The notes under the pieces were generated by a model that was given only the letters and a program-made list of their open reading frames with translations, did not search any database and was not told the origin of the DNA. From assembly GCA_020052615.1 (NCBI GenBank), contig JAGVOT010000031.1, forward strand, positions 1 through 64,000: a stretch of DNA of 64,000 nucleotides. The letters are read 5' to 3'. This document shows, one piece after another, positions 1 to 27,484 of this stretch. The number at the start of each line of letters is the position of its first letter. Within the stretch, counting starts at the first letter, position 1. The DNA comes from Nitrospirota bacterium (lineage in GTDB: Bacteria > Nitrospirota > UBA9217). The position numbers and the translations under genes were made by a program.

Positions 1-103
1 CCGGCCGGGAGGCCGCGCGCATGGCCTTCGCCAGGATGATACCGCATTTTCCGCACTCGATAGCGCCGTCCTGCTGCTCGAAACCGCATTTAGGACATTT
101 CAT
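1..103 (-). CDS. Zinc-ribbon protein, N-terminal fragment
   Basis: The reading frame starts at an ATG at 103 and runs off the left edge of the window. The visible 34 residues begin MKCPKCGFEQ and hold two CxxC knuckles (CPKC and CGKC) 15 residues apart, a classic zinc-ribbon spacing. Such N-terminal ribbons occur on many bacterial membrane and regulatory proteins, so the function of the whole protein cannot be told from this piece. Confidence 0.7.
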   Translation of the reverse strand, partial: MKCPKCGFEQQDGAIECGKCGIILAKAMRAASRP

Positions 104-245
104 CAAGACCTCCCGCGTCGTCGTGGGCCCTTCAGCCCGGACATGCCTGCCGGTCTTTCTGCTGTGCGACGATGAAGTGCTGCAGTGATGAAGTCAGGGC
201 CAGAAACGGTTTCCCTTCGCGCCGAATCCCAAGGTCGCTGTACAG

Positions 246-327
246 AAAGGGAGCCACCGGCTCCCGCCGGGGGAGGCTCCACTAACAGCGAGATTGCCGC
301 GCCGCGAAAAACGCTTCTCGCAATGAC
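246..327. repeat. Two adjoining dispersed-repeat fragments
   Basis: The gap 104-351 has no gene. Positions 246-284 match the hairpin-rich end (GGGAGCCACCGGCTCC) of the 114-bp repeat found at 8706 and 11019. Positions 288-327 hold a 40-bp sequence (AAACGCTTCTCGCAATGAC at its end) that recurs in the opposite orientation at 2781-2823. Confidence 0.6.
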
Positions 328-351
328 CTGTCAAGCGTATTCAGCAACCTG

Positions 352-1002
352 CTACTGCACCGGGGGATGTCCCATGCCCTTCAGCTGGTTGAGCTGGGAA
401 ATGATGACGAAGTCCCGGTCGTTGAAGGCGTACCCTTCCTTGCGGATGAAGGACCGGGTGTACAACGTACCCGTGAACTCGTCAAAACGGAACGATCCGA
501 TGAGGTCGGTCGTATCCTGCTGGAGACAGACACTCTCATATTCCAGGTCGACCCAGGCGTGGTCGATGATGCCGCCGGGATAGGCCAGTTCGCCGGTGAC
601 GACGCGGACGTCCGAGGCCGGGATGCCCATGGACCGGTACAGGGCGCACAGCAGGGCCGCCTTGCCGAGGCAACTCGCTCTTCCCTCGTCGATGATGTCC
701 CCGGCCGGAAGCGCGGGCAGGGACGGATCGAAGCTGACATGATCGCGAACGTAGGCATAGGCGTTCTCGGGCGTCTGGAGAATGTTCACCAGGGCGCGCA
801 CGCGCTTGTCATTCGGTGTAATGAGCGTCAGGAGGTCGTCGGGGTCGTTCACGATAATGTCATGGAAGGTGCCGTCAGGCGGTTCACGCAGGGAGCCGGT
901 CAGAAAACCGAGCCCAAAGGCAAGGATGAGCGCAAGGGCTGCGGCGATCGTTCCGGCCGAAAGCCGTTCTGTTGTCGTTTGAATGCGGTCGCGGATACTC
1001 AT
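352..1002 (-). CDS. Membrane-anchored transglutaminase-like protein
   Basis: The 216-residue protein has one N-terminal membrane segment (about residues 17-37). A transglutaminase-like fold follows, with candidate catalytic residues Cys111 in GRASCLGKAALLC, His148 in DHAWVDLEY and an Asp near 163. In bacteria this fold more often acts as a peptidase or in cell-envelope remodelling than as a crosslinking enzyme. The active domain would face the periplasm. It is followed upstream on the same strand by a deacetylase-family gene about 50 bp away, so the two may be co-transcribed. The substrate cannot be told from the sequence. Confidence 0.75.
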   Translation of the reverse strand: MSIRDRIQTTTERLSAGTIAAALALILAFGLGFLTGSLREPPDGTFHDIIVNDPDDLLTLITPNDKRVRALVNILQTPENAYAYVRDHVSFDPSLPALPAGDIIDEGRASCLGKAALLCALYRSMGIPASDVRVVTGELAYPGGIIDHAWVDLEYESVCLQQDTTDLIGSFRFDEFTGTLYTRSFIRKEGYAFNDRDFVIISQLNQLKGMGHPPVQ

Positions 1003-1052
1003 GATCTTTCCTTTTGCGGGACCTGCTGTTCATGATGGATCGCTATCTCGTT

Positions 1053-2096
1053 CTACTTCAGGCCCTTCCAGTATTTCTTCTGATGGGCAATGATGGAACG
1101 GATGACACGGTCGGCAGCGGGCGAGTCCATGACAGGCACGGTCCAGCGCGGCCCGGTGAAAGCCTGGAGGACCGAGCGCACGCCTTCGCGCAGGCCGTCC
1201 GGATCGTATCCGCCCTCCAGGGTGATCAGGACCTTTCCGCCGCAGGCGGCGTCGGCGATCTCCCGGACGATGGTCGCCAGGCTCCCAAAACCGCCGCCGG
1301 TCACTTCCATGCCGCCGAGGGGGTCTCTGACATAGGGGTCGAACCCCGCCGAGACCAGCACCAGCTCCGGCTTGTACTCCAGGGCGATGGGTTTGAGGAC
1401 CCGGTCATAGACCACGAGATATTCCGTGTCGCCGAAGCCCGGGGGGAAGGGGGCGTTCACCGTGAAACCCTCGCCTTTGCCGCTGCCGACCTCGTCGAAG
1501 TCCCCGGTGCCGGGATAGTGGGGATACTGGTGGGACGAAAAAAAGAGAACGTCCCGGCGGTCATAGAAGGCCTTCTGGGTGCCGTTGCCATGGTGGAGGT
1601 CCCAGTCCACGATCAGGACGCGCTTCAATCCGTGCTTCCCGATGGCGTATGCCGCGGCGATGGCGATGTTGTTGAACAGGCAAAAGCCCATTCCCCGGCC
1701 GGGTTCGGCATGATGGCCCGGGGGACGGACGAAGGCGAAGACGGATGAAACCGTCAGGCGTGAGTCGTTAGGCGACAGGAGAGCGTCAACGGCGTTCAGC
1801 AGGCCGCCGGCGGCGAGGCGGGCAACCAGGTAGGAGCGCGCCGAAAGACCCGTGTCCGCGTCCAGCCGGGAGAAGGCCCTGCCCTCGGATCTCGCCACGG
1901 TCTCGATATAGAAGGGATCGTGGACCGCGGCAAGTTCGTTTTCCGATGCTGCGCGGGGTTCGATGAGAGGAAGGTCGCTGAACTCCTTCTCGATCAGATC
2001 GTGGATCACGCGGAGCCGGTTCGGACTCTCGGGATGACCGTCCCCCGGATTGTGCTCCAGGTACCGGTCGTCTTTGATGATGGCGAGGGAGGACAT
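1053..2096 (-). CDS. Histone deacetylase superfamily amidohydrolase
   Basis: The 347-residue protein has all hallmarks of the class I/II zinc deacetylase fold: RPPGHH (124-129, tandem catalytic His), DWDLHHGNGTQ (164-174, zinc ligands Asp166 and His168), GFDPY (second Asp ligand) and LEGGYD (transition-state Tyr). Bacterial members include acetoin-utilisation protein AcuC and acetylpolyamine amidohydrolases. No acs or polyamine genes lie nearby, so the substrate is unknown. The family call is firm and the substrate open. Confidence 0.9.
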   Translation of the reverse strand: MSSLAIIKDDRYLEHNPGDGHPESPNRLRVIHDLIEKEFSDLPLIEPRAASENELAAVHDPFYIETVARSEGRAFSRLDADTGLSARSYLVARLAAGGLLNAVDALLSPNDSRLTVSSVFAFVRPPGHHAEPGRGMGFCLFNNIAIAAAYAIGKHGLKRVLIVDWDLHHGNGTQKAFYDRRDVLFFSSHQYPHYPGTGDFDEVGSGKGEGFTVNAPFPPGFGDTEYLVVYDRVLKPIALEYKPELVLVSAGFDPYVRDPLGGMEVTGGGFGSLATIVREIADAACGGKVLITLEGGYDPDGLREGVRSVLQAFTGPRWTVPVMDSPAADRVIRSIIAHQKKYWKGLK

Positions 2097-2103
2097 GGCA
2101 TTC

Positions 2104-2203
2104 CGCCAGGAAGAAGGTAGGAAGATAAGAAGGTAAGAGGGTAAGAAAAAAAATAACAGGATCCTTTTTCCTACGTTCCTACCTTCCTACCGTCTTTCCT
2201 TCA
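2104..2203. repeat. Tandem GGTAAGA-type array with inverted arm
   Basis: The gap between two minus-strand genes is filled by degenerate 8-9 bp units (AAGGTAGGAAGATAAGAAGG) that turn, after an A-rich centre, into the inverse (CCTACGTTCCTACCTTCC). The transcript could fold into a long imperfect stem. Confidence 0.7.
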
Positions 2204-2207
2204 AGAT

Positions 2208-2687
2208 TTACCCGGTCTTCGTCTCCAGCGACTGGATGAACTTCTGGAGCTCCGCGGGGTTCGGCAGCGTTTTCGGGACCTTCGCGGTCGGCGCGCATAC
2301 GGTCAGGACCTTGGCGAGGAGGTCCCTGACGCCGAACTCCAGGATCTCCTTCGCGATCTTCGGGGTGACATTGTCCAGGAGCATGCTCTCCCGGTACCAG
2401 CCCTCGCCGCGGGGAGAGATGGGCATGCATAGCCCGTAGTTGAGCGGCCGGGAGTTCGCGCCCTTCTTGAGCGCGATCGCCGAAATGTCCGACCGCAGGA
2501 GCTGCAGTCCTTTGAAGGCAGGATTGGAGCAGATCCCGCTTTTGCCCCGGCACAGCGCATCAAACCGCATGATATCGATGCCGCAGCACATGATGCAGGC
2601 CCTGGGCCCGTGTTCCGGCGATTGGCGGATGATGATGTAGAGATAATCGTTCTTGTACTCGTACGTTGCGACACGCGTGATGGTCAT
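2208..2687 (-). CDS. Conserved-looking Cys-containing protein, unknown function
   Basis: The 159-residue protein has no signal peptide or membrane segment. It holds a cysteine-rich stretch at about 31-54 (CIMCCGIDIMRFDALCRG, then GIC) and a helical C-terminus. I do not recognise the family. The cysteine cluster might bind a metal or cluster, which is speculation. A frameshifted copy of its N-terminal half lies directly upstream at 2843-3015, so the gene was once duplicated in tandem. Confidence 0.65.
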   Translation of the reverse strand: MTITRVATYEYKNDYLYIIIRQSPEHGPRACIMCCGIDIMRFDALCRGKSGICSNPAFKGLQLLRSDISAIALKKGANSRPLNYGLCMPISPRGEGWYRESMLLDNVTPKIAKEILEFGVRDLLAKVLTVCAPTAKVPKTLPNPAELQKFIQSLETKTG

Positions 2688-2780
2688 GGGCCAGTGCCTG
2701 CCTTTCCCTCTTGACCGGCGAGGTTTCCGGGATGTCGCGTCGTCATCGGGTCTTTATCAGTTTGCTGAAAAGTCCCGAAT

Positions 2781-2823
2781 TGTCATTGCGAGAAGCGTTT
2801 TTTTTCTGCGGCGAAGCAATCTT
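2781..2823. repeat. Dispersed repeat (TCATTGCGAGAAGCG type)
   Basis: This 43-bp segment matches 288-327 in inverted orientation. It lies next to the point where similarity of the neighbouring pseudogene to the intact gene ends. Confidence 0.6.
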
Positions 2824-2842
2824 ATGCATATTGATTGATAGT

Positions 2843-3015
2843 TCAGGCGCCGAGATTGCAATCGAGCAGATGCCTGCTTCCCCCCGGCAGATGGGGTCGA
2901 TTCGCGTCATATTGATGCCGCAGCAGAGAAGAAGGAGCCGGGTCCATGCTCAGGCGCTTGGCGCAGGACGATGTGAAAAATCGTTCTTGAGCTCGCGGGT
3001 GGCAACGTGCTGCAT
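2843..3015 (-). pseudogene. Decayed tandem duplicate of the 2208-2687 gene
   Basis: Read on the minus strand from an ATG at 3015, the sequence encodes VATRELKNDF, then after a frameshift HIVLRQAPEHGP, then after a 1-base loss CCGINMTRIDPICRGEAGIC. These align in order with VATYEYKNDY, YIIIRQSPEHGP and CCGIDIMRFDALCRGKSGIC of the intact neighbour. Similarity stops shortly after GIC, close to the dispersed repeat at 2781-2823. Two frameshifts and the missing C-terminal half make it a pseudogene. Confidence 0.8.
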
Positions 3016-3102
3016 GGCTGATATGGTCGGCACCGCCCTTCCGGAATGATGGCAAGCCCGGGCAATGCATAGGTCCTCCTGTCCGGCTTCCGACCCAGAA
3101 CG

Positions 3103-3435
3103 TTATCTGCCCTTCGTTTTCTTCTTTTTTGCCGTGCTTTTCGCGGCCGGTTTCTTGACCGCCGGTTTCGCTTTGGGTTTGGCCTTGCACGCCTCCCAGG
3201 CCTTTTTGTATTTATCGCTTTCCTGGGTCCGCTCTTCCAGCCACTGGGACAGTTTGGCGTTGTCCTCCTTCAGGGCTTCGATCTCTTTGATGGCCGCATC
3301 CCGCTGGGTCCGCGCCTTGTTGCCGGACACGTAGCTGAAAACGAGCAGGATCGTGACCACTGCCGCCAATGAAATGAAGATGAGCTTTGCCTTCTGTGCA
3401 TCGTCGATCGTTCCGCGTTCCGGTCTGCTTTCCAT
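3103..3435 (-). CDS. Single-pass membrane coiled-coil protein with Lys/Ala tail
   Basis: The start chosen is the Met of MESRPERGTIDD at 3435; an upstream extension to 3468 is open. The roughly 110-residue product has a short cytoplasmic N-terminus, one membrane helix (LIFISLAAVVTILLVFSYV), a charged coiled coil of about 40 residues and a very basic tail rich in KPAAK and KKKK. The tail could bind nucleic acid or the cell wall. I do not recognise the family. Confidence 0.6.
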   Translation of the reverse strand: MESRPERGTIDDAQKAKLIFISLAAVVTILLVFSYVSGNKARTQRDAAIKEIEALKEDNAKLSQWLEERTQESDKYKKAWEACKAKPKAKPAVKKPAAKSTAKKKKTKGR

Positions 3436-3606
3436 TCCTTTTTTGCTCCTCCTTCGAAAGATTAGCAAGACAAATGCGGGTCAAATGCTAGTATCACGAA
3501 TGTCACGCATAAAAAAACGAATGGCATGAACATTGGCTTGAACAGCCGTTATTTGCGGCATTTGTCCCATTCCTGGAATTCGTGTTAAGGAATTCAGCAG
3601 GTTGCT

Positions 3607-4116
3607 TTAATGATGCCGCTTCACTTCGAACCGGGACAGGGTGACCGGCGTTCCCGGCGCGATGCCGGCCTTCTGCATGGCGATCGCCACCTGGTCTTCG
3701 ACGGTGTCCACGCCTTCGAGGTCCGGGAGGAGAAGTCCTCTCCGGCCGCGCGCCTGGACAATAACGCCATAGCGTTTGGGGTCCAGGTCCGCAACGCCCT
3801 TTACCTGCTCCGGAGAGGTGAGCACGTCGACGGTGTACTCGATATATTCGAGTTCGTCCGGCCGGACACAGGAGAAGCGGGGATCGCAGGTCGCCGCGCT
3901 GATGGAGTTCCGTATCACCTCGCCTGCTACGTCCGGTTCCCGGGGCTCGAACGTCCCGATGCAGCCCCGCAGCATCCCCCGTATCTTGAGGCAGACGAAG
4001 ACGCCGGCGCGCTCGCCCATCTCAGGCGCCCGGTCCTCGTCCCGCGGTAGGAGGACCTTTCCTTCACGAACATACAGCTCGACGGTGTTCTTTGCCAGCT
4101 TGACGAGGGGATGCAT
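3607..4116 (-). CDS. AMMECR1 (AmrA-like) domain protein
   Basis: The 169-residue protein is a stand-alone AMMECR1 domain with the family core [10 protein letters not shown] (about 48-57) and the DPRF and LSPE-type turns ([20 protein letters not shown]). In many bacteria this is protein A of the AmmeMemoRadiSam set, whose chemistry is unresolved. Here no AmmeMemo or radical SAM partner is adjacent. Its ATG overlaps the stop of the upstream polyprenyl synthase gene (TAATG), so the two are translationally coupled. Confidence 0.9.
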
Positions 4117-5099
4117 TACATCTCCCGCTGCACCACGTAGTCTGCGAGCGCCATGAGCGCCTGGCGGGGCGGAGAATTGGGGAAGACGGCCAGCGATGCC
4201 TTGGCCTCATCGGAAAGGTTCTGTGCGATCCGGAGCGCATCGCCGACCGCGCCGTGCTTCGCCATGAGTCCCAGCGTATAGGTGAGATCGCCTTCGCTGA
4301 CCGAGTCGGCCTGCAGTATGCTCCTGAGGGCTTCCTGCTCTTCCGGCTCCGCCTTGCGCATGAGATAGATCAGCGGCAGGGTGACCTTGCCTTCGTCCAG
4401 GTCCTTGCCGAGGACCTTTCCGAGTTGCTTCTGGTCGGCGGCATAATCGAGGGTGTCGTCGGTGATCTGGAAGGCGAGGCCCATCTTTTTTCCGTAGGCC
4501 GCCAGGGCGTCCTCCTGGGAGAGGGGGGCCTTGCTGATGATGGCGCCGAGCCGGCAGGACGCGGCGATGAGCACCCCGGTCTTGCATTCCACCAGGCGGA
4601 AGTAGTCAGCCTCGGTCATGTCGGCGTTCTGGATCTGCATGAGCTGGAGCACCTCTCCCTCCGACATGGTGGTGGTCGTTTCGGAGAGCACGTCCATGAT
4701 CCGCTGGTTGTGCAGACGGACGGCGTGGTACAGCGCCTTGGAGTAGAGATAGTCGCCGACCAGGATGCTGGCCTGGTTGCCCCAGAGGGAGTTGGCCGAG
4801 GACCGGCCGCGCCGGATCTTCGCCTCATCAACGACGTCGTCGTGGAGGAGCGAAGCCGTGTGAATGTATTCGACGATGCTGCCGAGGAGATATTCGGCGT
4901 TATGTTCGCGGCAGCCGCACAGGCGCGCCGAAAGAAGGTGCAGCAGAGGCCGGAAGCGTTTGCCGCCGGCGCCGAGGATGTATTTGCTGACCTGCTGGAT
5001 GAGCGGAACGTCGGTGCCCAGGCTCTCATGGATCCTGGACTCCATGCGTTCCATGTCGGATTTATACTCTTTAAGGATGTCCTGAAGGGTGGTTATCAT
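4116..5099 (-). CDS. ispB: Long-chain trans-polyprenyl diphosphate synthase
   Basis: The 327-residue enzyme extends farnesyl or geranyl diphosphate with isopentenyl diphosphate to make the side chain of a respiratory quinone. It has both Asp-rich motifs: LLHDDVVDE (about 85-93) and QITDDTLDY (about 215-223), plus GGKRFRP near residue 50. Length fits hepta/octaprenyl synthases; the chain length is not predictable here. It is first in a two-gene unit with the AMMECR1 gene, driven by the promoter at 5130-5158. Confidence 0.9.
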
Positions 5100-5129
5100 G
5101 AGGTTTTTTCCAGACCGGTTTCTTTTTGA

Positions 5130-5158
5130 ATAATAGGTGAGGGCTATTGTAATGTCAA
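5130..5158 (-). promoter_or_regulatory. Sigma-70 promoter of polyprenyl synthase operon
   Basis: On the minus strand TTGACA (5158-5153) and TATTAT (5135-5130) are separated by 17 bp. The gene starts about 30 bp downstream of the -10 box. Confidence 0.8.
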
Positions 5159-5195
5159 GGTTTTTTCTGGATTGGTCGCGTGGTACGCCGCGATT

Positions 5196-6683
5196 CTAAT
5201 TATTGTGTCCGATGAAGGCGTCCTTCAACAACTTGCTCTGGCGTTCAAATGCCTGGCGGGGGTTCCGGGGGTCCTTCATCAGCGCTATCTCCTGGGTAAT
5301 AAGGCGGGCAAGATTCAAGGTGTGGGTCTCCACTTTGCCGGACTCCCGCTTATACAGGGGATGGTCCCGGTTGATGTAGATGGTCGTCTCCTCGGAAAAG
5401 GCCTCAGGTCCGTCCTCCCCGAAGCTGTCCACTACGCACTGGACGCCCGTTTCTCCGAATTTCATTTTCTTGATGATCGCGTTCGGGGTGAGTCTTCTGA
5501 CCCTGGGTTTCTTTTTCCGTTTCTTCTCCAGCGGCTTGACTGCGCCGGTATCCGGCGCCGTTTCCGCGGGCTTCACGTTTTCCCCTGCCCCGGGTCCTTC
5601 GTTCTTCGTGCTCGCAGCGTCGCCGCCGCTTTTCGCTACTTCGCCGATCGGCAGGGGGCCGAACGGCGAGAGGTCGGGATTCAGGGAGAGCGAGCGGTAG
5701 ATCCGCTGGAGCGCGTCCTTCAGCGCACGGCTCACCCGTTTGCCCTCTTTGCGCGCCGTGAGCTTCTGGAGGAAGGCCTTTACGTCCTCCATGATCCTGT
5801 TCATGACCTCGATGAACGAGCGGTACTCTTCCGAGTCCTTCAGAAACCCCGTGCGATCGCTCGTGACCTGAAGAAAGTCGGCGTTCACTTCGCCCGTCAC
5901 CCGGGCCATGGCCCTGCCCCACGTCTCCATGCCGAAGAGCTCCCGCCTGACCGTCACCTGCTTTACCTTCACCTCAATGCCCAGGTCCTTCGTTAGAGCG
6001 GCGGTCTCCGGCAGGATCACGATCTCACCCGTGACCGGGCCGAAGGCGGTACCGTCGATGACCGAGACTTTGTGGCCCGTGAGAGAGCGCGGCGTAACGG
6101 TGTGGTTGTTGATCCGCACTTTAAAGTGCGGGGCCTTGATCGGCGTGCCTTCGATGATCTTGGCTTCGATGTCCCTGGGATCGAACCGGCGGTCCAGACC
6201 CATCAAGATCACCGTGGTGCCGTTCTGCTTGCGGAAATCCGCGTCAAGGCGCTCAAACGGGAGCTGCCAGGCGCCGGTCGCCTTCTCCCATTGCTCCTTG
6301 TCAAAGGTCACCCTCGCCACGAAATCACCTCGTTTGGAGATCACTTCGAACCGCTTGCATGCCGAAAGGCTTGCGAATTTGCCGATGCCGAACATTCCTA
6401 TCCGGTCCCGGTGGTGCACGGGCGATTTGGGATTTGAAAGTTTCTGGGGGGAACCGATATTGAAATACTGCCGGAAACCGTCCATGTCCATGCCGCTTCC
6501 GTTATCCTGGATCTCAATGCTGTCGTCCGTCATAACGATCTCCACGTGGTCCGCATCGGCATCGTAGGCATTGTTCACCAGTTCACGCACGAATTCGATG
6601 CTCTCGGCGTAAAGGCGCTCGCCGATCGTGGTGATGTGGCTCTTGTCGATGGTGACGGGAATGAATTCCTGTGGTGACTGCAT
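5196..6683 (-). CDS. Orphan GHKL-type (HSP90-like) ATPase
   Basis: The 495-residue protein carries a GHKL ATP-binding domain at its N-terminus: ELVNNAYDADAD (N box), DNGSGMD (G1) and GMFGIGKFA (G2). A long charged linker about residues 350-400 (Pro/Ala/Glu then KKRKKKPRVRR) leads to a C-terminal helical domain. It resembles HSP90/MORC/MutL-like stand-alone ATPases rather than histidine kinases: no His-phosphotransfer domain or membrane segment is visible. Such proteins are sometimes found in defence loci, but no partner is adjacent, so the role is unknown. Confidence 0.75.
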   Translation of the reverse strand: MQSPQEFIPVTIDKSHITTIGERLYAESIEFVRELVNNAYDADADHVEIVMTDDSIEIQDNGSGMDMDGFRQYFNIGSPQKLSNPKSPVHHRDRIGMFGIGKFASLSACKRFEVISKRGDFVARVTFDKEQWEKATGAWQLPFERLDADFRKQNGTTVILMGLDRRFDPRDIEAKIIEGTPIKAPHFKVRINNHTVTPRSLTGHKVSVIDGTAFGPVTGEIVILPETAALTKDLGIEVKVKQVTVRRELFGMETWGRAMARVTGEVNADFLQVTSDRTGFLKDSEEYRSFIEVMNRIMEDVKAFLQKLTARKEGKRVSRALKDALQRIYRSLSLNPDLSPFGPLPIGEVAKSGGDAASTKNEGPGAGENVKPAETAPDTGAVKPLEKKRKKKPRVRRLTPNAIIKKMKFGETGVQCVVDSFGEDGPEAFSEETTIYINRDHPLYKRESGKVETHTLNLARLITQEIALMKDPRNPRQAFERQSKLLKDAFIGHNN

Positions 6684-6800
6684 GAAGGGATTATCGATGA
6701 AACAGAGAGGAAAATCAAGGTGATTATGGCAAAGCGCGGGAGCGTGTGCGGCAATATATCGGGCACGGACACGATGCCTGACACATTGCCTCGTATCGGA

Positions 6801-7787
6801 TCATAATTTCATCGCGTCCTGGACCTGGGCCAGGGTCTCTTTGGCGATGGTGCGCGCCTTGCGGGACCCTTCTGCGATGATCTCGGCCACCCTCTTCGGG
6901 CTTGCAGAGAGCTCCTGGCGCCTTTCCTGGATCGGTTTGAGGTACGCCAGGAGGTGCTTCAGGAGTTCCCGCTTGTCGTCGACGCATCCGATGCCTGCGC
7001 GGCGGCACTCCACATTCACATGGTCGCACCATTCCGTAGGCGCGAAGATCCGGTCGAGGGTGAACAAGGGGCAGATGTCCGGGTTGCCGGGGTCCTGCCG
7101 GCGCACGCGGGCGGGGTCGGTGATCATGGCCATGACCTTCTTCGTGATCTCTTCGGGCGTGTCCGAGAGATAGAGGCAGTTGTTGTAGCTCTTGCTCATC
7201 TTGCGGCCGTCGGTGCCGAGGAGCTTGGGGTACTGCGTGAGCAGGGGCTGCGGTTCGGGAAGGACGTCCCCGTAGAAGGCGTTGAACCTGCGGCCGATCT
7301 CGCGGGTCAGTTCCAGGTGGGGCAGCTGGTCGACGCCCACGGGCACATAGTCGGCCTTGTAGATGAGGATGTCGGCGGCCTGGAGCACCGGATAGCCGAG
7401 GAACCCGTAGGTGTACAGGTCCCGGTCGTCGATCTGCTCCATCTTCTCCTTGTAGGTCGGGACGCGTTCGAGCCAGGGAAGCGGCGTGATCATGGAGAAC
7501 AGGACGTGCAGCACGGCGTGCTCGGGAAGCTGGGACTGCTGGAACAGCACGCATTTCTCCGGATCGAGCCCCGCAGAGAGCCAGTCGATGACCATCTCGT
7601 GGACGTAGGTGCGCATCTTCGAGGTGTCGGCGTACTGGGTGGTAAGGGCGTGCCAGTCGGCGATGAAATAGTAGCACTCGTATTCGTCCTGGAGCTTCCG
7701 CCAGTTGTCCAGGGCTCCCATGAGGTTGCCGAGGTGGAGAAGTCCGCTGGGCTGCATGCCGCTGAGAACTCTTTTTTTCTTGGTCAT
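6801..7787 (-). CDS. trpS: Tryptophanyl-tRNA synthetase
   Basis: The 328-residue class Ic synthetase charges tRNA-Trp. The nucleotide-binding signatures are intact: the HIGH-type motif PSGLLHLGNLMGAL (about 13-26) and GRKMSKSYNN (about 195-204). Length is typical for bacterial TrpRS. It reads on the minus strand just downstream of the site-2 protease gene with about 75 bp between the two start and stop codons. Confidence 0.96.
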   Translation of the reverse strand: MTKKKRVLSGMQPSGLLHLGNLMGALDNWRKLQDEYECYYFIADWHALTTQYADTSKMRTYVHEMVIDWLSAGLDPEKCVLFQQSQLPEHAVLHVLFSMITPLPWLERVPTYKEKMEQIDDRDLYTYGFLGYPVLQAADILIYKADYVPVGVDQLPHLELTREIGRRFNAFYGDVLPEPQPLLTQYPKLLGTDGRKMSKSYNNCLYLSDTPEEITKKVMAMITDPARVRRQDPGNPDICPLFTLDRIFAPTEWCDHVNVECRRAGIGCVDDKRELLKHLLAYLKPIQERRQELSASPKRVAEIIAEGSRKARTIAKETLAQVQDAMKL

Positions 7788-7802
7788 ACAGTATCCTTGT
7801 GT

Positions 7803-7857
7803 GTCGGGAGCCGGAAGTCAGGAGCCGGAATAAGATACAGGGGTTCAGCCTTCAGGA
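7803..7857. repeat. Short GGAGCCGGAAGTCAGGAG array
   Basis: The trpS to protease gap holds degenerate direct units (GGGAGCCGGAAGTCAGGAGC) with a partial inverse (TTCAGCCTTCAGGAG region). It is the same sequence style as 25291-25389 and 39361-39457. Confidence 0.5.
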
Positions 7858-7858
7858 G

Positions 7859-8563
7859 TTAACTGAGCAGATACTGAATGAGGAACCGGAGGATCTCCTG
7901 CCCCAGGAAAAAATAGAGTACGTAAATGACCACCGGCCAGATGATGGCGCCGAGGACGCGAAAGACCAGGAGGGCCATGAGGATCAGCATACCGAAGCGC
8001 TCCAGACGATAGTAAGCGGCTCCAAGCCGCTCCGGCAGCAGCCAGTAGACGATCCTGCTCCCGTCCAGCGGCGGGATCGGGATGAGGTTCAGCACCGCGA
8101 GTGCTACATTGATCAGTACCCCGTAGCTGAGCATCAACGCGATCGGGAAAAGGGCCTGACCGGAGATGTCGCTGAGGCCGCTTTCTTTCACGGCAGGGAA
8201 GATGATCCGCAGGACCAGGGAGAAAAGAACGGCCATGAGAATGTTGATCCCCGGACCAGCCAGCGACGAGAGCGCCATGCCTTTCTTCGGGTCCTTGAAA
8301 TACCGCGGGTCAATGGGCACAGGCTTCGCGTAGCCGAACACGAACTGCCCGTTCGTGCTGAAGTACAGCACCAGCGGCATGATGATGGTGCCGATCAGGT
8401 CGACGTGCGGGATCGGGTTGAGCGTGAGCCTCCCCAGGTCCCGGGCCGTCGGGTCGCCGAGCCTGTTCGCGACCCAGCCATGGGCCACTTCGTGAAACAC
8501 GATGGCGAACACGAGCGGCATGGCCATGACGGCGATCTTCTGTATTGATGAAAGCTCTTCCAT
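7859..8563 (-). CDS. Site-2 protease family (M50) metalloprotease
   Basis: The product is about 234 residues from the ATG at 8563; a TTG at 8593 would add ten residues. It is a polytopic membrane zinc protease with HEVAH in its first helix (FAIVFHEVAHGW) and the third ligand in IPIPPLDGSRI near residue 150. The short form without PDZ matches the YwhC/FpvI-type group found in most anaerobes. It probably cleaves membrane-embedded regulators or leader fragments. The substrate is unknown. Confidence 0.9.
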   Translation of the reverse strand: MEELSSIQKIAVMAMPLVFAIVFHEVAHGWVANRLGDPTARDLGRLTLNPIPHVDLIGTIIMPLVLYFSTNGQFVFGYAKPVPIDPRYFKDPKKGMALSSLAGPGINILMAVLFSLVLRIIFPAVKESGLSDISGQALFPIALMLSYGVLINVALAVLNLIPIPPLDGSRIVYWLLPERLGAAYYRLERFGMLILMALLVFRVLGAIIWPVVIYVLYFFLGQEILRFLIQYLLS

Positions 8564-8705
8564 AAATTCAGAATTCCAGTTTACCGCAGCCAAAAGCAGG
8601 CGCTTCTAAGCGGGGTCACAGAGGGCGCGGAGAAAAAACAGGTGGCGTCAAATTGAGAAGGCTTAAAAGCCTGATGCTGATCCGTTGCCTTCAAGTCCCT
8701 TGGTT

Positions 8706-8819
8706 TCAATCCCTGCGAATTGGGATCCCCCGGCTCCCGCCGGGGGAGGAATGCGGAATTCGCGGGAGGCCGCGTTCCTAAAGGGAGCCACCGGCTCCTG
8801 CCGGTGGGAGCTCCGCTAA
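8706..8819. repeat. 114-bp hairpin-rich dispersed repeat, copy A
   Basis: This segment is nearly identical (about four differences by eye) to 11019-11132, in the same orientation. It contains two stem-loops: CCCCCGGC-TCCC-GCCGGGGG and GGAGCCACCGGC with its inverse. A partial copy is at 246-284. The rest of the gap 8564-8924 shows no gene, only a CACAGAGGGCGCGGAGAAA remnant near 8617 like the arms at 14079. Confidence 0.85.
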
Positions 8820-8924
8820 ATCTCAGCGGTCTGCGCTCTGCGCATTGAAAATATATATTCGTGAAGATTGATACTAAAGGAAAGGGGGTAGATGTGTCAA
8901 GGGAAAATGGCGTAGGGCGGCGCG

Positions 8925-10829
8925 CTATTCCTTCACGAGGGTGAACTTGCCGTCCTCGATCATGATGAAGAAGAGCTTCTTCTGGGATTCTCCGCTTCCC
9001 ATGAACGACGTCGATCCGGAGATGCCCGGGAAGTCGCGAAGGTTCAGAAGCCCGTCCCTGATCGTCGTGGGCGTGTCCTTTTTCTCCTTCAACAGGGCGA
9101 GGACCATGGAGGCGGCATCATACGCCTGGGCAGAGAGGATGTCGGGTTCTTCCTGGTAGGCGGAGCGGTATGCATCCACAACGGCCTTGACCGCGGGCTC
9201 CGGATTCTCCGGGTAGAAGCCGTCCACGATGACGGCGCCTTCGGCATGGCGGCCGGCGCGCTCGATCAGGTCGGGCGTGTGCCAGTTGTTGGAACCGATG
9301 ATCGCTTTTCCGGTTATGTTGTAGAACGCCAGCTGGGGGAGCAGCAGGCCGACCTTTTCCGCGTAGCCGGGAAGGTACAGGGCGTCGAAGGTAGGTATGT
9401 ACATCTGGAACAGCTTCTTCCGTTCCTTGTCGTCGTCGGGGATCGGTATCTTCTGGGACCGCAGATCGATCTCGATGAGCTTCCGGATGAAGGGGCCGAA
9501 ATCATTTGTTTCCGGGGGATACATGATGGTCGCGAGGATCTCGGCCTTCCGGGCGAGATCGCGGGTGAAAACGCGGGCGAGGTCCCTGCCATAGGGATCC
9601 TCGGGAGCGAAGATCACGAACTTCCTGAGTTTCTGTTTGAGGCCATACTCGGCGGCGGCGGCGGCCTGGGTCGCGTTGGTGAGGGCGTTCCGGAAAAGCC
9701 ACGGGCTCAGCTCGATCAGGCCCGCGCCCGGAGCGGTCGGCGTGAAGACAGGCAGCTGGACCTTCGCGAGCGACGGCGCCAGAGCCTCGACCTCACGGGA
9801 CAGAAGCGGCCCGATAACGGCCACGACGTTCTTTGTTGCAAGCTCGTTCAGCCCGGCAACGGTCCTGTCGGGCGAACCTTCCGTATCTTTCACGACGAGT
9901 TCAACGCGGTTCTCGGGGTTCTGGATATTATAGGACAGGACCGCGAGTTGGATCCCCTTGAGCACGCGGTCGCCGAAGAACGAGGCTGGTCCCGTCTGCG
10001 GGACCAGGACGCCAACGTTGTACCGCGGCGCCGTGAGCCCTGCAGTGGCCTGGGCCATCAGGATCTCTGCCCGGGTCTTTTCCGGATGGGCGGGGAACGC
10101 TGCCAGGAACCTTTTTGCCGCCTCGATGGCGTCCGAGTAGTTCCGCTGTTCGATCTGGAGCCCGGCAAGCCGCAGGAGCGCGGCGTCCGATGGAAAGGCC
10201 GTACCGGCGGCGAGCGTCTTGAGCTCGCTTTCCGACAGGTTCTTCTCGACGATCTCGCGGATGCGGTCTCTGTAGCCCGGCCGCTGCTTTTCGGGCGCGT
10301 TCTCCGACAGATACACGAACTCCCGGAGGGCGGCAGGATAGTTCTGCCTGATCACATAGGCGGTGGAGAGCATCTCGGCGATGCGCCGGAGCTTCGCCGG
10401 TTCGGTGATCCTGCTCCGGTCCTCGAGGTTGTCAATGGCGAGGTCGTACTCCTTCAATTCGAAGTAGCACAGGCCGATCTTGTATTTCGCCTCGCCGATG
10501 AGCGAAGAAGCCGGATATCCCTCGATGAGCTTCTTGTAATAATTGAGCGCCTGCTTGTAGTTCCTGGTGGTTAGCTGGATCTCTCCCATGAGGGAGAGGG
10601 CCCGGTCGGTATGCCTGCTCTCGGGGTAGGTGGTGAAGAAACCCTCCACAGCCTTTTTTGCCTGATCATACTGTTTTTTGGCAAAGAGGGTCTCGGCGTG
10701 GTCGATGAGCGCCTGGGCGTCCTTCTCCCATTGCGGCTCCGGGGCGAGCGCGGGCGCGCAGCCCAGCGAGGCGGTCAGGGCGATGAGCAGGAGCATCGCC
10801 GACAGGACGATGACGGGCCTCGACAGCAT
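8925..10829 (-). CDS. LpoA-like lipoprotein: TPR plus periplasmic ligand-binding domain
   Basis: The 634-residue protein starts with a lipoprotein signal (lipobox LGC, Cys24). TPR-like helical repeats follow at about 30-250 (DQAKKAVEGFFTTYPESRHT, then ALNYYKKLIEGYPASS). From about 265 it has a periplasmic-binding-protein fold of the branched-chain amino-acid type (YNVGVLVPQTGPASFFGD, AVIGPLLSREV). This architecture matches LpoA, the outer-membrane activator of a penicillin-binding protein. A ligand-sensing role is the alternative. It is flanked by two copies of the 114-bp repeat. Confidence 0.85.
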   Translation of the reverse strand: MLSRPVIVLSAMLLLIALTASLGCAPALAPEPQWEKDAQALIDHAETLFAKKQYDQAKKAVEGFFTTYPESRHTDRALSLMGEIQLTTRNYKQALNYYKKLIEGYPASSLIGEAKYKIGLCYFELKEYDLAIDNLEDRSRITEPAKLRRIAEMLSTAYVIRQNYPAALREFVYLSENAPEKQRPGYRDRIREIVEKNLSESELKTLAAGTAFPSDAALLRLAGLQIEQRNYSDAIEAAKRFLAAFPAHPEKTRAEILMAQATAGLTAPRYNVGVLVPQTGPASFFGDRVLKGIQLAVLSYNIQNPENRVELVVKDTEGSPDRTVAGLNELATKNVVAVIGPLLSREVEALAPSLAKVQLPVFTPTAPGAGLIELSPWLFRNALTNATQAAAAAEYGLKQKLRKFVIFAPEDPYGRDLARVFTRDLARKAEILATIMYPPETNDFGPFIRKLIEIDLRSQKIPIPDDDKERKKLFQMYIPTFDALYLPGYAEKVGLLLPQLAFYNITGKAIIGSNNWHTPDLIERAGRHAEGAVIVDGFYPENPEPAVKAVVDAYRSAYQEEPDILSAQAYDAASMVLALLKEKKDTPTTIRDGLLNLRDFPGISGSTSFMGSGESQKKLFFIMIEDGKFTLVKE

Positions 10830-10833
10830 CAGG

Positions 10834-10944
10834 TTATTTCGCCTTCTTTGCAGCAGCCTCTGCTTTGGCCGCCTTGGTGCGCGCTTTCAGGGTCTCGGCT
10901 TTCCGCTTCCGCCTGCGTCGCAATTCTCTCTCTCTTTCACGCAC
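10834..10944 (-). CDS. Very small basic protein (36 aa), unknown function
   Basis: A GTG at 10944 lies 10 bp after AGGAG and opens a frame of 36 residues: alternating Arg/Glu at the start (REREREL), then RRRRKRK and an Ala/Lys helix. It ends 4 bp before the LpoA-like gene. The strong ribosome site and adjacency favour a real small gene. The composition suggests a nucleic-acid- or ribosome-associated peptide, but this is inference. Confidence 0.5.
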   Translation of the reverse strand: MRERERELRRRRKRKAETLKARTKAAKAEAAAKKAK

Positions 10945-11018
10945 TGGTATGGTTCTCCTTTTTACGAAAATGGCCGATGAAATCAGCCTGCACACTATAA
11001 CGAAGACGGGCAGATTTG

Positions 11019-11132
11019 TCAATCCCTGCGAATTGGAATCCCCCGGCTCCCGCCGGGGGAGGAATGCGGAATTCGCGGGAGGCCGCGTTCTTAAAGGGAG
11101 CCAGCGGCTCCTGCCGGTGGGGGCTCCGCTAA
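11019..11132. repeat. 114-bp hairpin-rich dispersed repeat, copy B
   Basis: Copy B of the 8706-8819 element, same strand orientation and nearly identical throughout. The two copies bracket the LpoA-like gene and the small basic gene. Confidence 0.85.
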
Positions 11133-11267
11133 GGATGAAAGCTTGTCGTCAGTCGGCAGCAGACGGCTCATAGTTGTCAGTCAGGGCCACAGGGGCAGCG
11201 GGAACCTCATCTTTGCGTTCAGGACATCCGACTGTCGACTATCGGCATTTTTTGACCGTTTTTTCCC

Positions 11268-11296
11268 TTGATTTATTCAGGCTGATAGATTAGATT
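11268..11296 (+). promoter_or_regulatory. Sigma-70 promoter of the tRNA-Ala gene
   Basis: TTGATT (11268-11273) and TAGATT (11291-11296) are 17 bp apart. Transcription would begin near 11303, some 17 bp before the tRNA. Confidence 0.6.
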
Positions 11297-11319
11297 ATGT
11301 CCTGTCGTTCAGCCTGTAG

Positions 11320-11395
<76 letters not shown>

Positions 11396-11418
11396 TTTCT
11401 TCATTCACAGCGTAAAGC

Positions 11419-11452
11419 AAAGCCTTGCATGATGACCATGCAAGGCTTTTTG
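11419..11452. terminator. Intrinsic terminator, possibly bidirectional
   Basis: A perfect 13-bp stem AAAGCCTTGCATG / CATGCAAGGCTTT with loop ATGAC is followed by a T run. It ends the tRNA transcript. The opposite strand also ends in a T-rich flank, so it may serve the converging permease operon ending at 11488. Confidence 0.9.
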
Positions 11453-11487
11453 TTTATCAGCGGGTGACGAGTGATTTGTGTGCCGGA

Positions 11488-12654
11488 CTACGACGTTCTG
11501 AGCGCTTCCACAATATTCATCCGCGCTGCGCGGAACGCAGGCAGCACTCCGCCGACCAGTCCCATGAAGAGCGAGAAGGCGAGCGACTGGATAATGATGT
11601 CCGGCGTGAGGGTGAAGGAGAAGGCCAGCTCCGAGAAGGTCTGCCAGTTGACGGTCGAGATGGTGAGGAACTGCAGGAACGACGATACGAAAATGCCCGC
11701 GAGACCTCCCGCGAGGCCCAGGAGCAGGGACTCCAGGAGGAACACGATCATGATGCTCCGTCTGCGGAAGCCCAGGGCCCGGAGCGTGCCGATCTCGGCG
11801 GTGCGGTTGGCCACGGCCGCGTACATGGTGATCATGGCGCCGATGACCGCGCCAAGGGAGAAGATGAACGTGAGCGTCATGCCCATGATGCCGAGGAAGG
11901 TGGCCATCATCTCGGACTGGTCGCTGTAGTACTGCGTTTCGCGCTTCGCCTCCACGGTGAGGCGCGGGTCCGCTTCGATCCGCTCCTTTACCTTCGGGAA
12001 CTCCAACCTGTTTCGCAGGCGGAAGATTACCGATGAGTAAACAGGCCGCCGGAAGGCCTGCATGAGCTGGTCCGCGTCCCCCCATATCTCCGAGCTGAAG
12101 CCCGTCGTGCCCGCGTCGAAGGTACCCACCACGGTCCAGTCCCGCATGCCGAACCGCAGTGTCTCGCCGATCCCGCCGCCCTTGAACCGCTTCGCCACGC
12201 TCTGTCCGGCGATCACTTCGGACGATCCCGGCCGGGGCATATGGCCCTCGACGAGCTTCACCTGCGGCCGCAGGGCGAGCGACGTTACGCTGACGCCCCG
12301 GATCACCACGTTCGACGGCTTGTCGGTGCCGCGCTTGGGCAGGGAGATGAGGACGACGATCTCCTTGGCCAGGAGCTGCCTGCCGTCCGTGCCGACGGCG
12401 ATCTCGGGCTGGGTCTCGATCACGGCCGCCTGGCCCCGGTCCACGCCGCTCTGGACCTCGGACTGCGAGGCCTTGCGGATCACAACGACGTTGTCCGGCG
12501 AGCCGGTCTCGACCAGTGTCTTCCTGAGCCCCGCCGCCAGCATCAGCGTTGCCGCGAAAACGAAGACCACGAGCGCCATGCCCGATGCGGTCAGCACCGT
12601 GGTGAGCCGGCGGGTCCAGAGGTTCCGGAAACTATAGGAGAATGGTATAGCCAT
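11488..12654 (-). CDS. ABC transporter permease, FtsX/MacB family (second permease)
   Basis: The 388-residue protein has the MacB-type topology: an N-terminal helix (LTTVLTASGMALVVFVFAA), a large periplasmic domain of about 230 residues, and three C-terminal helices with the FtsX core (EIGTLRALGFRRRSIMIVF). It belongs with the permease at 12866, the ATPase at 14224 and the adaptor at 14980. Two distinct permeases plus an adaptor suggest a heterodimeric envelope export or lipid-extraction complex. The cargo is unknown. Confidence 0.88.
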   Translation of the reverse strand: MAIPFSYSFRNLWTRRLTTVLTASGMALVVFVFAATLMLAAGLRKTLVETGSPDNVVVIRKASQSEVQSGVDRGQAAVIETQPEIAVGTDGRQLLAKEIVVLISLPKRGTDKPSNVVIRGVSVTSLALRPQVKLVEGHMPRPGSSEVIAGQSVAKRFKGGGIGETLRFGMRDWTVVGTFDAGTTGFSSEIWGDADQLMQAFRRPVYSSVIFRLRNRLEFPKVKERIEADPRLTVEAKRETQYYSDQSEMMATFLGIMGMTLTFIFSLGAVIGAMITMYAAVANRTAEIGTLRALGFRRRSIMIVFLLESLLLGLAGGLAGIFVSSFLQFLTISTVNWQTFSELAFSFTLTPDIIIQSLAFSLFMGLVGGVLPAFRAARMNIVEALRTS

Positions 12655-19760: not shown

Positions 19761-19918
19761 GCAGTCATGAAGCAGCCGAAAGGCAGTCAAGATGCAGTCA
19801 AGAAGCGGTCACGAGGCAATTCAGAAGATGTTTTTGGACTGTCTTACGACTGCTGTATGACGCCGCACGACTGCCTTATGACTGCTGTAAGACTGCCTTA
19901 CGACTGCAGTACGACTGA
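19761..19918. repeat. 11-bp tandem array GCAGTCAAGAN with inverted array
   Basis: Six units of 11 bp (GCAGTCATGAA, GCAGCCGAAAG, GCAGTCAAGAT, GCAGTCAAGAA...) are followed after a short T-rich centre by seven inverse units (GACTGTCTTAC, GACTGCTGTAT, GACTGCCTTAT...). The array fills the rnc to radical SAM gap and reaches the rnc stop. A second copy of the same design lies at 26195-26326. Confidence 0.85.
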
Positions 19919-19925
19919 ACTTCAG

Positions 19926-20618
19926 CTATCGACTGCTGCTCGACAGTTTTTCCAGCGCTTCTCTCGCCGCCCGCTGCTCTGCTTCCTTTTTGCTCCTGCC
20001 GGTCCCGCGTCCGTACACCTCGCCCCTTACGGAAAGCTCGACCTCGAACTGCTTCTGGTGGTCGGGACCGGTTTCGGAAACGACCCGGTATTCCGGGAGG
20101 GTCTTGAGGCGCTCCTGGCAACGCTCCTGGATCTCTGTCTTGTAATCAGATGTCCCGCCGGTTGTCCGGGCCTTCCTGATCGTGTCATCGAAGAACCGGA
20201 TGATGAACGCGCCGGCGCGTTCGATGCCGCCGTCAAGATAGAGCGATGCCACGAGGGCCTCAAGGCTGTCGGCGAGGAGCGAATCCTTGTCCCGCCCGCC
20301 GGTCTGTTCTTCGCCTCGTCCCAGCAGCAGGTAATCGCCGAGGCCGATCTCTCGGGCCACGGCTGCAAGTGAGGGCTCGCTGACCACAGCGGCACGGATG
20401 CGGGACAGATCCCCCTCGGAGGAGCCGGGAAGATCGTTCATCAACCGTTCGCTCACCACGAGGTTCAGGACGGAGTCCCCCAGGAACTCCATGCGCTCAT
20501 TGTGTTCGGACAGGCGGTTCTCGTTCGCGTAGGACCGGTGGGTGAGCGCGCGTTCCAGCAGTTCGGCATTTCTGAACATATAGCCGATATGCTGCTGGAG
20601 CTCCGGGGCGGGACGCAT
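19926..20618 (-). CDS. rnc: Ribonuclease III
   Basis: The 230-residue form starts at ATG 20618, two bases past the fabF stop; an ATG at 20654 overlapping fabF is the alternative. The catalytic domain has ERMEFLGDSVLNLVVSERL and DSLLADSLEALVASLYLDGG with the four acidic metal ligands. A double-stranded RNA-binding domain ends the protein (GRGTGRSKKEAEQRAAREAL). Its last codons (SSSSR, stop) share the CAGTCGA words of the adjoining repeat. Confidence 0.96.
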   Translation of the reverse strand: MRPAPELQQHIGYMFRNAELLERALTHRSYANENRLSEHNERMEFLGDSVLNLVVSERLMNDLPGSSEGDLSRIRAAVVSEPSLAAVAREIGLGDYLLLGRGEEQTGGRDKDSLLADSLEALVASLYLDGGIERAGAFIIRFFDDTIRKARTTGGTSDYKTEIQERCQERLKTLPEYRVVSETGPDHQKQFEVELSVRGEVYGRGTGRSKKEAEQRAAREALEKLSSSSR

Positions 20619-26194: not shown

Positions 26195-26326
26195 AGTCGA
26201 GATGCAGTCGAAATGCAGTCATGATGCAGTCGAGAGGCAGTCATGAAAAATCACTGCCGTTTATCCGCGACTGTCGTGTGACTGTTGTTATGATTGCCTC
26301 ATGACTGCTGTACGACTGCCCTTCGA
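26195..26326. repeat. 11-bp tandem array GCAGTCGAGAN with inverted array (second copy)
   Basis: Units GCAGTCGAAAT, GCAGTCATGAT, GCAGTCGAGAG, GCAGTCATGAA are followed after about 20 bp by GACTGTCGTGT, GACTGTTGTTA, GACTGCTGTAC, GACTGCCCTTC. The design matches 19761-19918. It lies between the acyl-CoA dehydrogenase stop and etfB. Confidence 0.85.
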
Positions 26327-27484
26327 CTACTTTGCTCTCGTCGCTTCCCGGATCATGTCCAGGGCGATGACGTTCCGCTGGATCTGGTTTGCGCCCTCGA
26401 AGATCTGGAGGATCTTGGCGTCGCGCATCATCTTCTCGACGGGATATTCCTTCATATAACCCGAGCCGCCCATGATCTGGACCGCATCGGTCGTCACCTT
26501 CATGGAAACATCGGTGCCGAAGAGCTTTGCCATGGCCGAGGCGCGGGAGAAATCCTTGGCGCCGCTGTCGATGTATCGGGCGACGGAATAGACCAGGGAG
26601 CGCGCCGCCTCGGTCTGGGTCTGCATGTCAGCGAACATGTGCTGGATGGCCTGGAATGAGGTGATGGGCTGCCCGAACTGAACGCGGTTCTTGGCGAACG
26701 ATATCGCCTCGTCGATGGCGCCCTGTGCCACGCCCACGCCCATGGCCCCCACACCCGTGCGGGAACTGTCGAGGGTCTTCATGGCGATGATGAAGCCCAT
26801 CCCCTGCTTGGAGATGAGGTTCTCCTTGGGGATCCGGCAGTCGTTGAAGATGAGCTCCGTGGTGGATGAGGCCCGGATGCCCATCTTGTTCTCCTTCTTG
26901 CCGAAGGTGAACCCGGGGGTGCCTTTCTCCACGATGAAGGCCGAGGCCCCGCGGGGGCCCTTTGACTTGTCGGTGATGGCGATGATCGTGTAGAGTTCCG
27001 CCTCGCCGCCGTTGGTGATCCACTGCTTCGTGCCGTTGAGCACATACTCATTGCCCTCGAGCTTCGCCGTGGTCTGGATGCCGCTGGCATCACTGCCCGC
27101 ATTGGCCTCGGTGAGTCCGAACGCCACGAGGCTCTTGCCGGTGGCCACATCGGGGAGGAACTTCTTTTTCTGCTCCTCGGACCCGTAGAGCAGAATGGGA
27201 TAGGTCCCGAGGGCGCTCGAGGCGTAGGTCGTTGCGACGCCCACGCAGGCCTTGGAAAGTTCCTCGACGGTGATGCAGAGTTCGAGGCTTTTCTTCCCGA
27301 GGCCGCCGTACTCTTCGGGGATGAACAGGGCGTAGAGATCGGCCTGTGCAATGGCCTTCATGATGTCCCGGGGGAACTTGTTCTGTTCATCCAGTTCTGC
27401 GCGGACGGGCACGATCTTTTCCACCGCGATCTGACGCGCCAGGTCGCGGATCATTATCTGTTCTTCTGTCAGCAGGTAATCCAT
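26327..27484 (-). CDS. Acyl-CoA dehydrogenase
   Basis: The 385-residue flavoenzyme has all three ACAD domains: helical N-terminus, FAD-binding middle (FGLTEANAGSDASGIQT, TKQWITNGGEA) and C-terminus with the catalytic Glu in QIFEGANQIQRNVIA. It is closest in features to short-chain/butyryl-CoA enzymes. Placement between fabH and etfBA inside the fatty-acid synthesis operon is unusual. The natural partner is the adjacent ETF. It could oxidise acyl-CoA, or run in reverse as an enoyl reductase. Confidence 0.93.
   Translation of the reverse strand: MDYLLTEEQIMIRDLARQIAVEKIVPVRAELDEQNKFPRDIMKAIAQADLYALFIPEEYGGLGKKSLELCITVEELSKACVGVATTYASSALGTYPILLYGSEEQKKKFLPDVATGKSLVAFGLTEANAGSDASGIQTTAKLEGNEYVLNGTKQWITNGGEAELYTIIAITDKSKGPRGASAFIVEKGTPGFTFGKKENKMGIRASSTTELIFNDCRIPKENLISKQGMGFIIAMKTLDSSRTGVGAMGVGVAQGAIDEAISFAKNRVQFGQPITSFQAIQHMFADMQTQTEAARSLVYSVARYIDSGAKDFSRASAMAKLFGTDVSMKVTTDAVQIMGGSGYMKEYPVEKMMRDAKILQIFEGANQIQRNVIALDMIREATRAK

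Follow-up and report, generated by a model that had tools for sequence, protein, structure and literature searches.

Short palindromic dispersed repeats of bacteria include REP/BIME- or MITE-like elements. Ordinary bacterial pseudogenes of tandem paralog pairs are truncated genes with frameshifts and an in-frame stop; close relatives keep the ortholog intact, and an undamaged paralog lies beside the remnant. Here we describe a locus that brings the two together, in a window of 64,000 nt from a Nitrospirota bacterium (the whole stretch of DNA that was analysed; contig JAGVOT010000031.1, positions 1 to 64,000). It has all of the listed features of such pseudogenes and differs from them in no point of principle. 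What sets it apart is the identity of the copies: the gene that survives has the tail-less form, observed in a single genus, whereas the lost gene is of the type with close relatives at this locus in other genera. In all likelihood the locus records an ordinary gene loss, the recent disappearance of one member (c2) of a very old pair of which the other member (c1) survives.

All features of the locus lie on the minus strand. In the order of that strand, an AMMECR1 family gene (3607-4116; PF01871, E 2.8e-42) is followed by an ORF for a small coiled-coil-like protein (3103-3468), which stands upstream of the relic in conserved synteny, and by the relic itself (2862-3024), as delimited by translated search, frameshift-tolerant alignment and the family profile. 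Next come a dispersed palindromic element in truncated form (2765-2859, from alignment to other copies), a spacer (2706-2764, from blastn blocks against the genome G001), the intact gene for a 159-aa protein (2208-2687, an ORF with orthologs in congeners), which is c1, a form without the tail within an unnamed protein family of the Nitrospirota, and a histone-deacetylase-like gene (1053-2096; PF00850, E 3.5e-93). The AMMECR1 and deacetylase-like genes serve as syntenic anchors on the two sides. The source genome (G000) is a draft assembly of 135 contigs and was compared at family level with 13 other genomes (G001-G013), among which two congeners were found, G001 and G002.

When the translated genome was searched with the 159-aa protein, the relic was matched at 2839-3012 of the minus strand (E 1.9e-8, 40% identity, one TGA), and the family profile matched 2860-3015 of the same strand (E 2.7e-6). 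A reading made from the letters of the window alone (hereafter the sequence-only reading) had seen here three colinear peptide blocks in shifted frames, resembling the intact neighbour, and these blocks are real. Frameshift-tolerant, protein-guided alignment of 2843-3015 (minus strand) gave a score of 159 with three frameshifts and 28 of 49 residues identical, far better than shuffled sequence: none of 300 dinucleotide-preserving shuffles of the relic reached this score (mean 30.7, sd 5.1, maximum 50). The alignment spans residues 6-54 of the 159-aa protein, its N-terminal third, which corresponds to window positions 3006-2863. Against the intact c2 of a congener the score was 198 with 38 of 52 residues identical, above the score against the c1 protein. 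The relic retains the first ~55 of the 184 codons of the G001 c2 ortholog. Its reading frame is broken by three small frame-breaking length changes and an in-frame TGA, and where the intact orthologs have their first start codon the relic has no ATG. As in a pseudogene, the sequence combines above-chance homology with a broken and truncated frame, and related genomes have an intact ortholog in the corresponding position.

The intact pair for which the sequence-only reading had proposed to look in relatives is present at the same place in both congeners. Orthologs of the 159-aa protein were found in G001 (93%) and G002 (79%), each beside a 54% paralog, c2. The genes flanking the pair in G001 are the same as in the window (blastn and ORFs); the pair is likewise followed by the deacetylase-like gene in G002, where it begins at base 89 of the contig and the other side falls off the contig. 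One 602-bp blastn block, 83% identical to G001, joins the coiled-coil gene to the relic and ends within c2 at window position 2862. In a 16-row DNA tree the relic, which is short (~163 nt), grouped with G001_c2 (support 96/93; 84% nucleotide identity over 163 columns) and, less firmly, with both c2 genes together (82/78). We conclude that the relic is very probably the pseudogenised remainder of c2, which stands first, in transcription order, in an old tandem pair.

Had the 159-aa gene recently been duplicated in tandem and the new copy decayed, this would account for two adjacent copies of like orientation and for a match between relic and 159-aa protein far above shuffles. This history nevertheless appears exceedingly improbable. 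If the relic and the c1 gene of the window were recent duplicates they should be closest relatives, and they are not: a clade of the two was rejected on the DNA tree (AU p 6.3e-5), the relic lies closer to the c2 genes of the congeners, both congeners carry the intact pair, and dS between c1 and c2 exceeds 1. A clade of the relic with all c1 genes was also rejected (p 0.009). No other c2-type copy was found in the source genome by the translated search, which gave four hits; the two hits remaining beyond this locus, on C29 and C9, fall in clades B and C of the family.

The pair itself is much older than the loss. Within a genome, c1 and c2 are 53% identical with a dS of 1.15 (G001) or 56% identical with a dS of 1.54 (G002), and dS across six c1-c2 pairs ranges from 1.15 to 1.80. 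Between the window and G001, dS at this locus is 0.24 for c1, 0.37 for the deacetylase-like gene, 0.41 for the coiled-coil gene and 0.61 for the AMMECR1 gene. Because c1-c2 dS is at least 1.15 against 0.24-0.61 for the species comparison, the duplication long predates the species split, and c1 and c2 certainly separated before the three species of the genus arose. The sequence-only reading was correct in seeing a broken, truncated paralog beside an intact copy, and the frameshifts and truncation that it described are recent. Its further claim, that the relic dates a duplication of the intact gene, is contradicted by the pair in the congeners, by the grouping of the relic with their c2 genes and by the old divergence of c1 from c2; the duplication is old. 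Similarity to the intact neighbour alone would misdate the duplication, and relatives with an intact pair are needed to tell an old duplication from a recent loss.

How much further back the pair reaches was approached with protein trees of the family. The alignment A1 held 41 of 43 references (without L019 and L110, and with the window reference standing for L001). The first protein tree used 35 of 45 sequences, leaving out the raw reading of the relic, L110 (incomplete at a contig edge), L026 (start wrongly placed) and seven distant rows (L019, L022, L025, L028-L031). A second tree, built on 34 rows without the columns of the C-terminal tail, additionally left out G034, which has the longest branch. 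In the protein trees c1 is a long branch outside a clade (24 rows, support 86/93 in the second tree) that unites c2 with clades B and C and with the tailed A copies from other genera. The C-terminal tail is present in all 24 of these rows and absent in c1, G005_A, G007_A and the distant rows, and on the tree built without the tail columns its presence changes once. Since the tail, which c2 has and c1 lacks, changes only once on the tree, the c1/c2 split is probably to be placed near the base of the bacterial family, with its exact position blurred by long branches. Clades of c1 with G005_A (p 0.016) and of c1 with G005_A and G007_A (p 0.032) were rejected.

A duplication in the stem of the genus, after which c1 evolved fast and so only looks basal, would be compatible with a relic of lost c2. 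It is suggested by the distribution of c1, which was found in three species of one genus only and sits on a long branch in protein trees, and a clade of c1, c2 and all five tailed A copies was not rejected (p 0.119 and 0.259), with a clade of c1, c2 and G004_A borderline (p 0.057). A clade of c1 and c2 alone, however, was rejected in two protein tests (p 0.011 and 0.021). In addition, c1 lacks the tail borne by c2 and by all sampled members of the tailed clade, so that a secondary tail loss in c1, though possible, would be an extra step where one change suffices on the tree. Overall we consider a genus-stem origin unlikely, and a split near the base of the family is preferred.

For the loss itself, c2 would have ceased to function after the split from the nearest congener, as the relic retains 84% identity to G001_c2 and the congener gene is intact. 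Changes at codon positions 1/2/3 number 4/3/7 on the relic branch and 5/0/4 on the G001_c2 branch (55/54/54 sites), too few to prove relaxed selection. The surviving c1 gives dN/dS values of 0.17 against its G001 ortholog and 0.13 against that of G002, and on these estimates is under purifying selection.

At its downstream end the relic lies against the palindromic element. A complete element consists of two inverted arms around a ~20-nt spacer and is ~100 nt long overall; the copy in the window has 9 nt of the left arm (2851-2859), the right arm at ~2822-2782 and a tail reaching to ~2765. The left arm is kept in most other copies of the source genome (element alignment). At the joint (2860-2862), placed by blastn against G001 and by the element alignment, c2 homology has its last base at 2862 and two bases on, at 2859, the element remnant starts. 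The homology does end near a dispersed repeat, as had been noted from the letters; the element extends from 2859 to ~2765 and so lies nearer to the relic than the position 2781 given there. Between anchors taken from the blastn blocks against G001 (window 2862 = L034:3293 and window 2705 = L034:3983), the 156 nt at window 2706-2861 replace ~690 nt in G001 that hold the 3' part of c2 and intergenic sequence. About two thirds of c2, together with the intergenic spacer, are missing in the window.

The simplest reading of this arrangement is one deletion that stopped inside an element which was there before it. It would have run from inside c2 to the left arm of an element already present in the intergenic spacer, taking the 3' part of c2 and most of the left arm at once, and the three small frame-breaking changes could have accumulated before or after it. 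The element may itself promote deletions. The order of events might also have been the reverse, with the element inserting into c2 and a second deletion beyond it removing the rest of the gene. Such a history would explain why the joint sets gene almost exactly against element, but it requires an extra event for the truncation of the left arm, and beyond the element nothing recognisable of c2 or of the congeners' spacer follows; we regard this order as possible yet rather improbable. Finally, a draft of many contigs with a break at a dispersed repeat invites the suspicion of an assembly or sequencing artefact. Against this, the gene order across the joint is as in the congeners, the repeat contains neither the three separate frame breaks nor the many substitutions, and the translated search found no c2 sequence elsewhere in the genome, which makes an artefact highly improbable.

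In other genera the locus takes different forms. G004, G005 and G008 have a single intact copy between the AMMECR1 and deacetylase-like genes. All that G003, a member of another genus, has at the locus is the 5' piece of a gene of the family (~1099-1236 of L155, G003:C98:1900-4500), which is matched best by the tail-less G007_A (54.5% over G007_A residues 10-42). This fragment amounts to a second truncation, independent of the first, at the AMMECR1-HDAC locus. One could go further and propose an ancient pair whose members are largely interchangeable and have repeatedly been lost by 3' truncation, with the element driving the deletions, in which case the losses would concern a c2-type gene in the species of the window and a tail-less-type gene in G003. 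We hold this generalisation to be doubtful.

The loss has little significance beyond its lineage. It does point to an unnamed protein family. By profile search, members of the family of the 159-aa protein occur in 68 of 295 sampled Nitrospirota genomes. The best Pfam match of the 159-aa protein has an E of 0.11, below the cut-off, no match was found in NCBIfam or PHROGs, and a sequence search of solved structures gave only matches at E 0.19 or worse. The predicted structure of the protein is confident (pLDDT 91.0). A Foldseek search with it gave no match at E <= 0.001 (best E 0.04), and the best VIA-align Z was 6.0 over 72 residues (rmsd 3.0), with mostly designed proteins in the top rows; neither comparison yielded a convincing solved structure. 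A ferredoxin-like fold is a candidate at most. Two more intact paralogs of the 159-aa protein are encoded in the source genome, one of type B (G000:C29:36068-36526) and one of type C (G000:C9:6287-6733), each with orthologs across the bacterial family. A short profile match at G001:C4:100425-100562, considered as a second relic, was rejected: it reaches the contig end and is closest to B-type members, and probably supplies the missing half of the gene that opens G001:C90.

The palindromic element is dispersed, with matches at nine other places in the source genome (E < 0.01). Its core pattern was found in 9 of 41 genomes, all of the same family, whereas a reversed control pattern gave no match. 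The number of exact complete-core copies varies within the family (30 in G009, 19 in G006, 10 in G005 and 5 in G000). At L117 two copies stand in a row, and the outer flanks of the element also look inverted. In its size of ~100 nt, its inverted arms and its several dispersed copies in genomes of one family, the element resembles REP/BIME- or MITE-like repeats. It is palindromic and dispersed, as expected of a REP-like element, but no cognate Y1/RAYT transposase gene with copies beside it was found: the element motifs are absent from the fetched flanks of both Y1 transposase loci of the source genome. Likewise, window positions 1-12000 contain no match to an Rfam family at gathering scores, and no related description was met in the literature, judged by titles. 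Unlike a transposase-mobilised REP, it is at most a candidate mobile element.

Other repeats occur around the locus and further along the window. In the c2-c1 spacer of G001 (L034:3765-3985) a different sequence, ~110 nt long, stands twice in tandem in nearly identical form, suggesting that this spacer is prone to collecting repeats. A second dispersed, GC-rich repeat, made of paired CCGGCTCC-type hairpins ~61 nt apart, lies at window positions 246-285, 8719-8819 and 11032-11132; it has many more copies in the genome, and at 240-354 it abuts half a copy of the palindromic element. Short tandem-like repeats with an 11-nt unit (GACTGCCTTAC-type) are found at 19837-19927 and 26292-26328, 6.4 kb apart.
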